Assembly: GCA_018222965.1 (NCBI GenBank)
Contig: JAAEZH010000003.1
Coordinates: 86,478-150,477 of the forward strand
DNA from: Bacteroidota bacterium
GTDB lineage: Bacteria > Bacteroidota > Bacteroidia > Chitinophagales > Saprospiraceae
Direction of reading: 5' to 3'
Length of the DNA stretch: 64,000 nucleotides
Positions within the stretch are counted from its first letter, which is position 1; each line of letters starts with the position of its first letter. Below, piece after piece: positions 42,246 to 45,729 of this stretch. The notes under the pieces are model-generated. The model searched no databases. It saw only the letters and a list, made by a program, of their open reading frames with translations, and was not told the origin of the DNA. Made by a program: the position numbers and the translations under genes.

Positions 42246-42319
42246 GGTCTGGTAGTTCAGTTGGTTAGAATGCCGGCCTGTCACGCCGGAGGTCGCGGGT
42301 TCGAGTCCCGTCCAGACCG
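42246..42319 (+). tRNA. tRNA-Asp (anticodon GTC)
   Basis: A 74-nt cloverleaf: acceptor stem GGTCTGG/CCAGACC with discriminator G, D arm with GTTAG, anticodon stem CCGGC/GCCGG around loop CTGTCAC, TpsiC arm with GGTTCGAGTCC. CCA is not encoded (the next bases are CAA). Its last 15 bases, counting the base after the discriminator, are repeated 407 bp downstream. Confidence 0.97.
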
Positions 42320-42324
42320 CAAGA

Positions 42325-42353
42325 AAGCCTCTCTGTTTACAGAGGGGCTTTTT
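42325..42353 (+). terminator. Terminator after tRNA-Asp
   Basis: AAGCCTCTCTG / CAGAGGGGCTT stem with a GTTTA-type loop, followed by TTT. Confidence 0.8.
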
Positions 42354-42379
42354 GCGTTTATGGTGTAAAAGAAAAGGAA

Positions 42380-42685
42380 ATGGAGGGGAATTGGTATGTG
42401 TATGTGCTGTATTCTGAGAAGTTGCAAATGTTTTACAAAGGTCAAACCAGAGATCTAGCGGAACGGTTAAGGTATCACAACGAAGGTCTTGAGCGCTTTA
42501 CGCGACATGGAGTACCCTGGCGATTGATTTGGTTTACTCTTAAACCAAATCGAGGAGAAGCCTTAATATTGGAGAATAAGTTGAAGAATTTGAGTCGACA
42601 GCGTTTAGCTCGATTCATATTAAAGTATAGGTCGGGGTTGAGCCCTGACGAGCTTGCTTTCGTAAGCAAGCTGTCAGGATGCTGA
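42380..42685 (+). CDS. GIY-YIG nuclease-family protein (tRNA-linked)
   Basis: A 101-residue single-domain GIY-YIG protein of the UvrC-N/YhbQ-like (URI) type. The signature appears as WYVYVLYSEKLQMFYKGQT (VYVLY and YKG for GIY and YIG), followed by the conserved Arg in DLAERLRYHNEG and the metal-binding Glu in LILENKLK. Residues 93-101 are encoded by the hairpin region. Enclosed between tRNA-Asp and a copy of the tRNA 3' end, which suggests it is the homing or transposing gene of a minimal element. Endonuclease activity is inferred from the family. Confidence 0.85.
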   Translation: MEGNWYVYVLYSEKLQMFYKGQTRDLAERLRYHNEGLERFTRHGVPWRLIWFTLKPNRGEALILENKLKNLSRQRLARFILKYRSGLSPDELAFVSKLSGC

Positions 42686-42732
42686 CAACGAGCCGAAGGC
42701 TGTTCGTCAGCATCCCGTCCAGACCGCCTCCA

Positions 42733-42769
42733 CCCGCCGGAGCTCACAAGAGCGAAGGCGGGTTTTTTA
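42733..42769 (+). terminator. Terminator after the GIY-YIG cassette
   Basis: CCCGCC (42733-42738) / GGCGGG (42757-42762) followed by TTTTTT. The hairpin sequence, including AGCTC and AGAGCG in the loop region, resembles the element at 28848-28875. Confidence 0.75.
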
Positions 42770-43083
42770 TTTGTATCTTATCCCCTTTGAGATGTTTCAT
42801 TCTACGGGCTACGGCGGCCAATGACCGCCCCGTTTTGTAGCATCAAAATCTTTCCCGTCCACTTCACCAATACTGACTAAGATTTCCTAACACGAAAATT
42901 AGTACAGTAATGACTTCAGAATTCACTTTTGTTAAAGTAAGAGAGCAAATCTAAATTACCTTTTTATGGTGGCATCTTTTTGACTCATACTGCGTTAAAA
43001 AGCCTCGCCGATGCTTAGGCATCGCCTACGTTTTTTGCCTTGTCTGATCCAAAAATCTGCTCAACCAAAAAAGCAACCTAAAT
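42770..43083. other. Gene-free gap before the second GIY-YIG gene
   Basis: No gene seen. It holds a hairpin GATGCTTAGGCATC (43011-43024) between near-repeated words GCGTTAAAAAGCC and ACGTTTTTTGCC, and a GGCGG-CCAATGA-CCGCC hairpin near 42813. Confidence 0.5.
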
Positions 43084-43311
43084 ATGCTCTCTTCCTACGT
43101 TCTTTTTTGCAATGATCGCAAGCTTTACACCGGTTGTACGCGTAGTCTTTCGGATCGATTGGATCGCCATCGCAGAGGATCTGTTCCCGCCACTAAAAAT
43201 CGAAGACCGGTAGAACTCGCTGCTTGCTTTGGATTTCCAAATGTGTATAAAACATTTGAGTTTGAAAAATACCTGAAAACCGGATCAGGACGTGCCTTCC
43301 AACACGTATAA
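43084..43311 (+). CDS. Small GIY-YIG nuclease-family protein
   Basis: A 75-residue GIY-YIG domain: SSYVLFCNDRKLYTGCTRSLSDRLDRHRRG (motif positions YVL and YTG, catalytic-type Arg in LSDRLDRH) and a metal-type Glu in FEFEKYLKTGSGRAF. It is the short form of about 75-85 residues that is common in Bacteroidota. It differs clearly from the copy at 42380. No flanking tRNA repeat was found for this one. Confidence 0.78.
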   Translation: MLSSYVLFCNDRKLYTGCTRSLSDRLDRHRRGSVPATKNRRPVELAACFGFPNVYKTFEFEKYLKTGSGRAFQHV

Positions 43312-43343
43312 AACGCCTTAAACGTAATACGCCTAAAACGATA

Positions 43344-44279
43344 TCAAAACACCCGATACCATTGCACGGTCGGAATCGGTACAGGCACAAACTCTTCATT
43401 GGCATAAATACCGGTAAAACCAAACTGAAACGCATTCCCTGTAGAAATGTGCCAACGAAGACCGGGAATGAGAATCCCGATCATAGGACGCTTTCGCTCT
43501 ACCTCGACAAATTCTTCCATGCCTGTTTCGGGATTGTATTGCAATTCTTGCTCAAGCGTGGTTTTACCAGGCAACATAAGGAAGGAGTCAAACACCAGGC
43601 TCAATCTTGGGCCTACCTTGGCCATGCCGGCTACATTTGTGAGTGCACGTCCCTGAAACTCCCCTTCTACCCAAATTCCACCATACCCGCCGGAGAAGGC
43701 AATATTGCTTTTCCGGGACCCGAATGAAAAGGTGGCGTAAGGCAAAATGCCTCCATAATCGGGAAAAGCCCAGGTACCGGAACCAGCCAGAAAACCAACA
43801 GCCATCTGACTCTTTTCTCCCAGCTGCATACTGTATTTTGCAGTTGCAACAACCGGAACACCCACCCAGGAAGACATAACTCCCATGCCGAAATTATCGG
43901 CCACGCCAAATTGAAAATCGGGCCCAAATAAGTTCCATTGAATGTAGTGCTCGCCTTTTTTTACCGGTAGCCCATTGGTGGTAAGAAAGTAACGCGTGGC
44001 AAACTTGTCCTCCCCAATGTACTTCCCTTCCGCATTGTAATCCTTACTGGTAATGGCCTGCCTTTCTTCAATCTCATATTGCGGAATGTACAGCTCCCGG
44101 CCCTCAGCCGTTCTAAATAATACTTCCCGGTTATCCTCTTCGATGATGGTCCCGATAAACTCCAATCCGTTGGCCGTTACAATGCGGTAGGTCTGCACAT
44201 CCGGAATTGAATCCGAAACTTCCTGTGCGTACAGGTTGGAACCAATCAGAATGGCTAAAATGAAAATTAGATTTCTCAT
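43344..44279 (-). CDS. Secreted hypothetical protein, probable outer-membrane beta-barrel
   Basis: A 311-residue protein with signal peptide MRNLIFILAILIGSNLYA. Residues 30-70 look like a small SH3-like strand domain (YRIVTANGLEFIGTIIEEDNREVLFRT), a type seen in Bacteroidota lipoproteins; residues about 105-311 are alternating amphipathic strands (FQFGVADNFGMGVMSSWVGVPV ... FSGGYGGIWVEGEF) ending in WYRVF, where the terminal Phe is typical of outer-membrane barrels. Family name not recognised. It stands alone. Confidence 0.7.
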   Translation of the reverse strand: MRNLIFILAILIGSNLYAQEVSDSIPDVQTYRIVTANGLEFIGTIIEEDNREVLFRTAEGRELYIPQYEIEERQAITSKDYNAEGKYIGEDKFATRYFLTTNGLPVKKGEHYIQWNLFGPDFQFGVADNFGMGVMSSWVGVPVVATAKYSMQLGEKSQMAVGFLAGSGTWAFPDYGGILPYATFSFGSRKSNIAFSGGYGGIWVEGEFQGRALTNVAGMAKVGPRLSLVFDSFLMLPGKTTLEQELQYNPETGMEEFVEVERKRPMIGILIPGLRWHISTGNAFQFGFTGIYANEEFVPVPIPTVQWYRVF

Positions 44280-44448: not shown

Positions 44449-45729
44449 TTATCCCTCAGCGCAAGAAAAGGCCATAGATTTTAATTCCTGTTCTGCATTT
44501 GAAATTCCATACCTGGTTGCCACTATTCTCCAATCTTTTACAGCCGTTTTAACCTCTTCAATAATTTTGATGGCTCGATCTTCTTTCAGTCGAAAGTAAG
44601 GACAGACTTCTAATGCAAGCCTTAAGTCAAGTGCATTATCCTCCTCAGAAATATTCAATTTTAAACCAGTACCGGTTTCAACCGGATTGATATCATAAGC
44701 GGGTGAAAGAATCCACCCCCTGTTGGTCAGAATAAACCCATGATTGCGTAAATGGTCATCCGTATTCGCTACGCAAATACTAAATACAATTCGCCTCCAA
44801 AGTTGTTCCAGGTCTTCATTAACTTTCGCCCCATGGGTAGTGATAAATTCTACCAGTTCCAAATAGCTGACCCCCTCACTATGATCTTCTCCATCTACAT
44901 GCCCTAACAAGGTCATTGCTGAAGCAAAATGGATACGCTCTCCATTCTCTGTACGATCAAATCGTTTGGTTAGAAACGTATGCTTATTGGTTGTAAACTT
45001 TTTTGCCTGAGCTTCTGCCATGTTTACCCCGGCAGCAATAGCCAGTTCATAAGTAACAATTTCCCACCCTCCAACATCAGATTGATCGTTTTTACTCGGG
45101 AATTTTGCAATCCATAAATGATCATTGTTGTTCAATACACTGGCTTTTGGACGTGCACCACCCAGGGAAGAACCAGACGCAACCAAAATATTCAACCACT
45201 TCATGTATTCAGGATCATTGATCACATCATCATCTTCCAGGCGTAAACTAATTTGTTCCAATTGCCGAATAGATGTCCAGGGTGGACTGGCCATTGCTTT
45301 ATTATCATTTAGAAAAGCGCCATCTAAATCCAGTTTAAATCGCAATCCTCCCATACGGTGTCCATCGTAAACACCCAACAGGTAATCTGTTTCAAATAAA
45401 TTATTTTGTGGCCGCCCTTCCCCTCTGGCTAAAGCTGCTTCTCTTCTTCGCATCAGAATACGCCCCCATCTGTCCGGAGATGAATCCAAAAATATCCCGA
45501 AATTACGTTTGTCCTGATCATTTAAGTACTGCATTCCTGTATACAATCGTAAGTCCGGATCGAGCAATTGAGCTTGTCCGGATTGCAACCAGCCATTATC
45601 ATATTCAAACGAAAAGATCTCCTTTCCTCGTAAAAGTTCAGCATGCAGCACACCCATGTGTACGGGGCCATTCAACCCGTGCCAATCTGCATAGACATAC
45701 ACTTTTCTTCTTTTATCAGCCTTGGCCAT
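44449..45729 (-). CDS. HipA-family serine/threonine kinase toxin
   Basis: A 426-residue HipA-like kinase, close to the 440 of E. coli HipA. N-terminal couple_hipA domain (about 8-100), then the kinase core: the Gly/Ser-rich loop SSLGGARPKA (187-196), IAKFPSK (ATP Lys), catalytic NTDDHLRNHGF (322-332) and metal-site PAYDINP (344-349). E. coli HipA phosphorylates glutamyl-tRNA synthetase and causes dormancy; the target here is unknown. The antitoxin gene ends 3 bp upstream of its ATG. Confidence 0.92.
   Translation of the reverse strand: MAKADKRRKVYVYADWHGLNGPVHMGVLHAELLRGKEIFSFEYDNGWLQSGQAQLLDPDLRLYTGMQYLNDQDKRNFGIFLDSSPDRWGRILMRRREAALARGEGRPQNNLFETDYLLGVYDGHRMGGLRFKLDLDGAFLNDNKAMASPPWTSIRQLEQISLRLEDDDVINDPEYMKWLNILVASGSSLGGARPKASVLNNNDHLWIAKFPSKNDQSDVGGWEIVTYELAIAAGVNMAEAQAKKFTTNKHTFLTKRFDRTENGERIHFASAMTLLGHVDGEDHSEGVSYLELVEFITTHGAKVNEDLEQLWRRIVFSICVANTDDHLRNHGFILTNRGWILSPAYDINPVETGTGLKLNISEEDNALDLRLALEVCPYFRLKEDRAIKIIEEVKTAVKDWRIVATRYGISNAEQELKSMAFSCAEG

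Follow-up and report, generated by a model that had tools for sequence, protein, structure and literature searches.

Integrase-type islands at tRNA genes insert within the tRNA, restore its 3' end, and repeat its tail, and REP palindromes go with RAYT Y1 transposases. Phages are already known to have free-standing GIY-YIG homing enzymes close to tRNA genes. According to the SegB passages of one report, this GIY-YIG enzyme of phage T6 cuts DNA in vitro at positions that include sites within phage tRNA genes, is needed for tandem tRNA-segB repeats, and has an enriched motif, RAWTSGAAC, at 23 of 83 cut sites (PMC13096335). The reverse complement of the motif as given there, GTTCSAWTY, is, in our own reading, a conserved word of the tRNA T loop. 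The segB gene itself lies between two tRNA genes, and its target is described in an older review as a tRNA intergenic region (PMC2988022). The 2006 survey of GIY-YIG proteins, in its account of the Slx1 cluster, describes a stand-alone minimal domain with mostly vertical descent and few exceptions (PMC1564403), and Slx1 is introduced elsewhere as an enzyme that cuts branched DNA (PMC6902002). In the Tsy transposons, as summarized in their description, a tyrosine recombinase is joined by a GIY-YIG nuclease, which helps but can be dispensed with (PMC10293859).

Among the open-access full-text matches listed, none describes units on bacterial chromosomes that interrupt a tRNA gene, close the broken end with a hairpin, and make the tRNA whole again. 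We consider it probable that this is a minimal mobile element which inserts inside a tRNA gene, leaves one complete tRNA, and spreads most likely by nuclease-stimulated homing. As with SegB of T4 and T6, in the passages cited above, a GIY-YIG enzyme adjoins tRNA genes of many isotypes and tandem repeats are formed, but the units described here are chromosomal, occur in Bacteroidota and Patescibacteria, encode a bare Slx1-type domain, and combine a split, hairpin-bearing tRNA with a restored one. They share with integrase-type islands the insertion inside a tRNA gene, the restored 3' end, and the tail in direct repeat, but they carry no recombinase, mostly measure less than 0.5 kb, occur also in a mirror form that restores the 5' end, and bear a hairpin where the tRNA is broken. 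Group I introns of tRNA genes are likewise selfish DNA within a tRNA that uses nuclease-encoded homing, as outlined in the relevant part of PMC3984707, but here the Rfam scan found no intron, and the tRNA is complete at the DNA level and requires no splicing.

The stretch of DNA analyzed (the window; 64 kb) comes from a genome of 5.48 Mb in 105 contigs (G000). The only tRNA called by ARAGORN in the window is tRNA-Asp(gtc) at positions 42246 to 42320 of the plus strand (Rfam RF00005, 72 bits), which forms the inner border of the unit in what we call the upstream arrangement. Its last 15 nt, TCCCGTCCAGACCGC, have exactly two exact copies in the window, at 42306 and 42713, 407 bp apart, as the initial annotation had reported; with up to two mismatches allowed, shuffled sequences average 0.10 matches, and none of 100 shuffles contained two. 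The exact word match at 42713 to 42727 (plus strand) is the outer tRNA half. Directly 3' of the intact tRNA lies terminator A, a hairpin with a T-run (42322 to 42353, plus strand; sequence, and a fold of 42321 to 42380 at -20.9 kcal/mol), and beyond it a stand-alone GIY-YIG nuclease gene of the Slx1/UPF0213 type encoding 101 aa (42380 to 42685, plus strand; PF01541, 6.9e-15, residues 4 to 74). This is indeed, as first described, the single ORF between the two tail copies, and no other Pfam family was matched there. Its 3' end overlaps a hairpin-remodeled tRNA-like copy (42630 to 42725, plus strand), in which a GGTC/GACC stem closes three arms at 42634 to 42645, 42646 to 42676, and 42677 to 42715; the fold of 42629 to 42727 (-52.8 kcal/mol) gives an acceptor-like stem closing three arms, with two long hairpins. 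Beyond the 15 nt, the repeat comprises a 36-nt stretch at 72% match and an inverted repeat at 42677 to 42715. The element had been described as ending in a copy of the tRNA 3' end; the tail is indeed exact over 15 nt, but the copy is more than a tail, namely, a hairpin-remodeled tRNA. A second hairpin with a T-run, terminator B (42732 to 42769, plus strand; fold and sequence), is unlike terminator A, which is expected if one of the two arrived with the insert; under an insertion model, terminator B is probably the original terminator of the tRNA gene.

Farther downstream, a diverged second GIY-YIG ORF of 75 aa (43084 to 43311, plus strand; PF01541, 1.9e-9) is present, and its surroundings (42730 to 43600) gave no match of at least 13 nt to 229 tRNAs. 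A palindrome lies near this ORF, around 43008 to 43028, and a HipA_C protein encoded on the minus strand (44449 to 45729) adjoins the unit. The Pfam scan of the 17 window ORFs between 32.8 and 52.5 kb, both GIY-YIG ORFs included, found no recombinase or transposase, in line with the earlier statement that an integrase is absent. The Rfam scan of 41.0 to 44.5 kb returned the tRNA and one sRNA match far under its gathering score, with no intron and hence no catalytic intron RNA interrupting the tRNA at this locus.

The 101-aa protein consists of a GIY-YIG domain only (Pfam), lacking the C-terminal NUMODs of the I-TevI-like cluster. It matches PDB 1zg2, a UPF0213 protein, in sequence (1.7e-6), and its solved relatives are UPF0213 proteins. 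An AlphaFold2 model of the 80-residue domain built from 40 sequences (pLDDT 95.4) gave 1zg2 as its best Foldseek match, followed by Slx1 chains, with UvrC and I-TevI weaker, and Y7, S11, Y18, G20, R28, H32, T40, and E64 are invariant across 40 relatives. Fold and catalytic residues thus place the protein in the Slx1/UPF0213 GIY-YIG family, and it resembles the YhbQ-type members in both structure and sequence, 1zg2 being the best match; the difference is that the survey of 2006, in its treatment of this cluster, gives no link to tRNA genes or mobility (PMC1564403). The protein is also a nuclease of the homing superfamily (PF01541) standing outside any intron or intein, as free-standing homing enzymes do. 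The best named relatives of the window gene are from Saprospiraceae and other Bacteroidota records, so that its host probably belongs to the Bacteroidota as well. Among pairs with intact domains and at least 62% identity, 18 yielded a dN/dS ratio, at 0.03 to 0.53 (0.04 to 0.53 in the 11 with dS below 1.5), the remaining listed pairs being saturated. By these ratios, purifying selection maintains the gene for its protein.

The initial annotation proposed a search for the same arrangement at other tRNA genes, and this search was productive, with a second unit at tRNA-Met of the host genome itself and 27 anticodon types occupied across 194 distinct small GIY-YIG genes (all fetched loci; E below 1e-12, at least 60 matched residues). 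All but one of these genes (193 of 194) are from Bacteroidota, the other being from a Peribacteria genome (L042). A same-strand tRNA gene lies within 260 bp of 124 of the 194, upstream in 94 and downstream in 30, and an opposite-strand tRNA within the same distance was found for none; of the rest, 32 are in arrays, 8 are farther off, 5 are at contig edges, and 25 are without a tRNA. ARAGORN at times calls the hairpin copy a tRNA, as with a "Glu" in L059 that is a Val copy. Profile A1, made from 40 proteins, matched 94 of 148 evenly drawn Bacteroidota genomes at an E value of at most 1e-7; counts from this profile favor tRNA-associated members, from which it was mostly built. A sample drawn by Pfam family alone is free of that bias. 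GIY-YIG genes were found by this family search in all 40 genomes searched, G000 included (among frames of less than 200 aa, G025:C114 and G030:C123 were left out), and 26 of 47 distinct small genes from 22 relatives, G000 excluded, had a same-strand tRNA within 260 bp. None of 11 long-frame GIY-YIG loci (464 to 672 aa, taken to be of the UvrC/Cho type; L001, L004, L022, L026 to L028, and L030 to L034) had a tRNA within 1.5 kb. The pattern extends to Patescibacteria, the phylum to which the Peribacteria genome belongs, where 42 of 59 genomes had a match and the nearest tRNA lay within 260 bp on the same strand for 25 of 39 genes and on the opposite strand for none (39 loci: ten from one genome, G187, and the best match of each of 29 others). 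Phages and plasmids are represented by three matching records each, all of them below 60% identity.

The copy on the far side of the gene is polarized. When the intact tRNA is upstream, the far-side copy retains the tRNA 3' end (exact over at least 12 nt in 57 of 93 elements) and not the inner 5' end (2 of 93); when the intact tRNA is downstream, it retains the 5' end (20 of 29) and not the inner 3' end (1 of 29). The expected end was thus found for 77 of 122 elements with the cognate tRNA, versus 1 of 2,440 control comparisons with tRNAs of other amino acids; two of the 124 elements, with short flanks, were left out, and 36 of the 122 have no outer copy of at least 10 nt. Gapped alignment (108 of 122 retained, with scores of at least 14) gave the same result: the upstream type kept the 3' end in 72 of 80 and the 5' end in 4 of 80, and the downstream type kept the 5' end in 25 of 28 and the 3' end in 1 of 28. 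In Patescibacteria, outer ends matched in 12 of 25 cases and inner ends in none. A bare 3' tail as the sole copied sequence was therefore ruled out: what is copied resembles a tRNA, and 5' ends are retained in the mirror form. The original description of a footprint of insertion at a tRNA 3' end accordingly holds for the duplicated tail of the window unit but does not cover the mirror form, with its copy of the 5' half.

Many outer copies are short halves, and much of the extra sequence within the copies is self-complementary. In 19 of 61 upstream-type copies, extra sequence of at least 10 nt sits in the T loop, no more than one base away from C56|R57; 18 others have it at another point of the T arm, and 16 have it in the anticodon arm. 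Among downstream-type copies, it lies in the D loop in 14 of 29. The first of these positions falls in the T loop, the region of the SegB word. Thirteen 22-nt inserts, selected as one recurring double-hairpin type, are paired in 95.2% of cells and covary at 0.381 versus 0.080 when shuffled, with none of 500 shuffles as high. Of 73 outer copies, 69 lack either the anticodon loop or the T-loop word, in the downstream type partly because the copy is short.

Palindromes are also dispersed through the host genome of the window. CCCGATAGCTATCGGG, with the pattern CCCGA..TCGGG, has 126 forward matches in G000 versus 33 for the reversed control (for example, L147 7420; L148 9923; L152 6717; L158 4875 and 5316; and L164 9972), also fills the tRNA-Met copy at C95, and, across the stretches retrieved for the palindrome search, has five copies no more than 500 bp from a tRNA gene. 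The likeness to REP/RAYT systems consists of short dispersed palindromes, one of them in the tRNA copy beside a nuclease gene of G000, but a GIY-YIG protein stands in place of the Y1 transposase, and the units are tied to tRNA copies. A RAYT-like partnership with the dispersed palindromes was set aside because the wider pattern is tied to tRNA. At L021 (743 to 2416), a GIY-YIG gene without a tRNA lies between repeats that carry TCATCCCGAACTTGTTTCGGGATC palindromes, with a spacing of about 175 bp among four of the repeats; perhaps these repeats are a different kind of partner. At L152 (6600 to 6760), a 5' part of tRNA-Cys with a palindrome lies just upstream of an intact tRNA-Cys with no nuclease gene seen, as a solo scar.

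Empty alleles of the tRNA-Asp site, proposed as a check at the outset, were common. Among 32 genomes, G000 included, the locus is occupied in five (G000, G003, G007, G010, and G011), empty over at least 600 bp downstream in 23, and undecided at contig ends in four. In the one other genome of the genus of G000, the tRNA-Asp tail starts a contig, with no GIY-YIG gene in the next 5 kb. At tRNA-Ser(gga), an empty allele (G055) and an occupied one (G050) are 98.7% identical over 1,457 bp, ending at the last base of the tRNA, and the intact tRNA-Ser is identical in the two. The insertion boundaries that were to be defined from an empty site were thus obtained exactly on the left; beyond the tRNA, the right flanks of these two genomes gave no match, and a right boundary was not obtained from this pair. 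Occupied and empty alleles of the same site were found for tRNA-Asp, tRNA-Ser, and tRNA-Gly. Both of the observations on which the initial reading had been staked, empty alleles and copies at other tRNA genes, therefore exist.

At the tRNA-Gly(gcc) site of G065 and G077, the left flank, tRNA, terminator, and right flank are unbroken, and the site is empty. In their congener G093, the promoter stretch shared with them (102 nt identical in all, of which the final 26 are native tRNA) runs into a hairpin. After another 7.3 kb comes a remnant tRNA copy containing a hairpin-like stretch; it is joined to the native tRNA-Gly 3' end (a single mismatch over its final 16 nt), which is followed by an identical native terminator and then by the right flank common to G065 and G077, at 92%. 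Within the 7.3 kb are a Gly-lineage GIY-YIG gene, a gap of 99 N, a complete tRNA-Gly, and four cargo genes (L356, 1766 to 8275), which encode a LytTR response regulator, a histidine kinase, an ABC ATPase, and an ABC permease that carries an M1 peptidase domain. This complete tRNA-Gly differs at 7 positions from the native tRNA, which is unchanged in G065, G077, G104, G108, and G139, and no other tRNA-Gly(gcc) of G093 is listed among the 40 of 68 first-look candidates that were scored. The native gene is thus split here, and the complete copy most likely arrived with the insert. Given the 99-N gap and the cargo, the insert may represent more than one event, and G093 is the only one of the compared cases in which the complete tRNA is a different allele. 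Between congeners, a tRNA inverted relative to otherwise shared flanks was also observed, for tRNA-Ala (L280 versus L175) and for tRNA-Gly (L358 versus L357).

Units also occur in tandem. In 34 arrays of at least two GIY-YIG genes, the window pair included, an intact tRNA is present at one end only in 27 (the 5' end in 20 and the 3' end in 7); five others have no intact tRNA (two of them at contig edges), and two have a tRNA between one unit on each side. Examples are eight units of about 364 bp at L205 and three 317-bp units at L252 that look identical. Such arrays are the expected outcome if a break at the one intact tRNA is repaired from a sister copy.

The nuclease lineages follow the tRNA. 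On a rough FastTree phylogeny of about 80 residues with 124 labeled genes, compared with 200 label shuffles, the anticodon required 67 changes (shuffles at least 92, mean 99.7) and the amino acid 43 (at least 82, mean 88.6), whereas the genome required 109, about as many as shuffled labels (mean 110.6, lowest 106). Host family clustered less strongly than tRNA identity (71 changes; shuffles at least 83, mean 91.5), and the side of the tRNA clustered too (17 changes; shuffles at least 22). Of the 124 genes, 63 share the anticodon with their closest relative outside their own genome, versus 5% expected; where that relative belongs to another family, 25 of 76 do so (about 5% expected over all). 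With strong clustering by tRNA and none by genome, the tree gives few hints that units move from one tRNA gene to another in the same genome; each nuclease lineage largely keeps its tRNA, passing between genomes or persisting there. The tie of a lineage to one target is not absolute. The closest named relatives of the window gene (44 to 47% identical) adjoin tRNA-His, so the window gene is an exception, and one that fits a jump. Part of the pattern is vertical, as indicated by the clustering of host families and by units kept with both flanks between congeners (e.g., L175/L188 and L040/L038). Across 12 tests of tRNA regions, lineages of the upstream type track the two acceptor strands (z = -3.5 and -3.7) and those of the downstream type track the D arm (z = -3.0). 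The T arm, which had been predicted as the recognized region for upstream-type lineages, is not tracked (z = -0.6) and was rejected as such.

Sequence comparison documents insertion into tRNA genes as well as filled and empty sites, polarized repeats, nuclease lineages specific to a tRNA, purifying selection, and arrays. The initial annotation had raised nuclease-driven homing as an alternative to integration by a tyrosine recombinase, and homing is the better supported of the two because the lineage follows the tRNA, the repeats are polarized as a cut inside the tRNA predicts, and a native tRNA has been split. In the mechanism that we propose, the Slx1-type nuclease would break or nick the matching tRNA gene in an unoccupied chromosome, and the broken halves would recombine with the tRNA sequences that border the donor copy. 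Repair would then copy in the gene, the hairpin, and a tRNA part or a whole tRNA that completes a tRNA. If a tRNA is written as T5-T3, a donor with T5 and T3 borders could insert either T3-gene-hairpin or hairpin-gene-T5, and either order would yield one complete tRNA, with an outer half left next to the hairpin. The results would be the two observed forms, namely, intact tRNA, terminator, GIY-YIG gene, hairpin, and outer 3' half, as in the window, and its mirror, outer 5' half, hairpin, GIY-YIG gene, and intact tRNA. The hairpins of the outer copy would disrupt it as a tRNA and perhaps also as a target, which would protect it, and a cut at the remaining intact tRNA repaired from a sister copy would produce tandem arrays. 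Cleavage by the nuclease, the position of the cut, and transfer between cells are presumed throughout this scheme.

Several points do not fit simple homing easily. The unchanged tRNA-Ser of a carrier implies that a nuclease cutting the intact gene would also cut its carrier, though phage SegB cuts the tRNA genes of its own phage and makes similar tandem arrays. Also against simple homing are the T arm, untracked by lineage; the 9-nt T-loop word, retained in 21 of 54 upstream-type outer copies; and the SegB-type word GTTCSAWTY, matched by only 34 of the 73 intact tRNAs that have an outer copy. A bare domain of about 80 residues from the Slx1 group would weigh against homing as well, by analogy with Slx1 as a cutter of branched DNA.

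One alternative is passive homologous exchange, in which incoming DNA would recombine through RecA at the border tRNA sequences and the nuclease would not be the driver but would serve some other purpose, for instance to cut cruciforms or hairpins that belong to the unit. The Slx1 fold, the hairpins with covarying stems, the units kept with shared flanks in some genera (L175/L188 and L040/L038), and the clustering of host families on the nuclease tree all agree with it. However, purifying selection and lineages that track the tRNA across families (25 of 76 versus about 5%) exceed the needs of a passenger, and we regard passive exchange as unlikely, though it is the most serious competitor of nuclease-driven homing.

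A tyrosine recombinase acting in trans at tRNA sites, with the GIY-YIG gene as cargo or accessory, is less likely again. A direct repeat of the tRNA 3' end, as found here, is the usual footprint of an integrase, and the Tsy transposons are a precedent for such a pairing, as the GIY-YIG nuclease in their description stands beside a tyrosine recombinase (PMC10293859). Against this reading, the lineages of the GIY-YIG gene itself track tRNA identity, the mirror form duplicates the 5' end of the tRNA instead, and no recombinase is present among the 17 window ORFs or the four cargo genes of G093.

A system acting on RNA, in which the nuclease cuts the tRNA or its precursor and the hairpin copy serves as a decoy or processing signal in the manner of a toxin-antitoxin pair, would also explain why the nuclease lineage tracks tRNA identity, and it could draw on the tRNA-like fold of the window copy and the paired hairpins elsewhere. 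We consider it very improbable, since a native tRNA interrupted by an insert, a complete tRNA of different sequence, and units in tandem all require events at the DNA level, since many outer copies are short halves, and since the superfamily members known from the 2006 survey, as far as its relevant sections go, cut DNA (PMC1564403). The last alternative, that ordinary tRNA duplicates in tandem decayed and a GIY-YIG gene merely happens to lie beside them, would suit the facts that tRNA genes do duplicate and that some GIY-YIG matches hold stop codons, but with tRNA association in 26 of 47 small versus 0 of 11 long-frame GIY-YIG genes, a polarity of 77 of 122 versus 1 of 2,440, and the pattern repeated in a second phylum, its probability is negligible, and we hold it refuted by the polarity of the repeats and the split native tRNA-Gly.

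Returning to nuclease-stimulated homing, we lean toward the view, with somewhat less assurance than for the element as such, that these units form an undescribed mobile class in at least two phyla, whose members interrupt tRNA genes in the T loop, the anticodon arm, or the D loop, leave a hairpin as a mark in the broken copy, and bring along either the missing half or a whole replacement tRNA. We know of no established role for small stand-alone GIY-YIG genes, which are common, with matches in 94 of 148 Bacteroidota and 42 of 59 Patescibacteria genomes. More than half of the small GIY-YIG genes examined would gain a single reading, that of a tRNA-targeting selfish element. If this is true, the units would account for tRNA pseudo-copies, for hairpins, and perhaps for contig breaks beside tRNA genes, and they would be among the smallest natural homing units. 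They would also provide a route for tRNA genes between species, and an essential bacterial tRNA gene could be replaced by an imported one, as G093 suggests.
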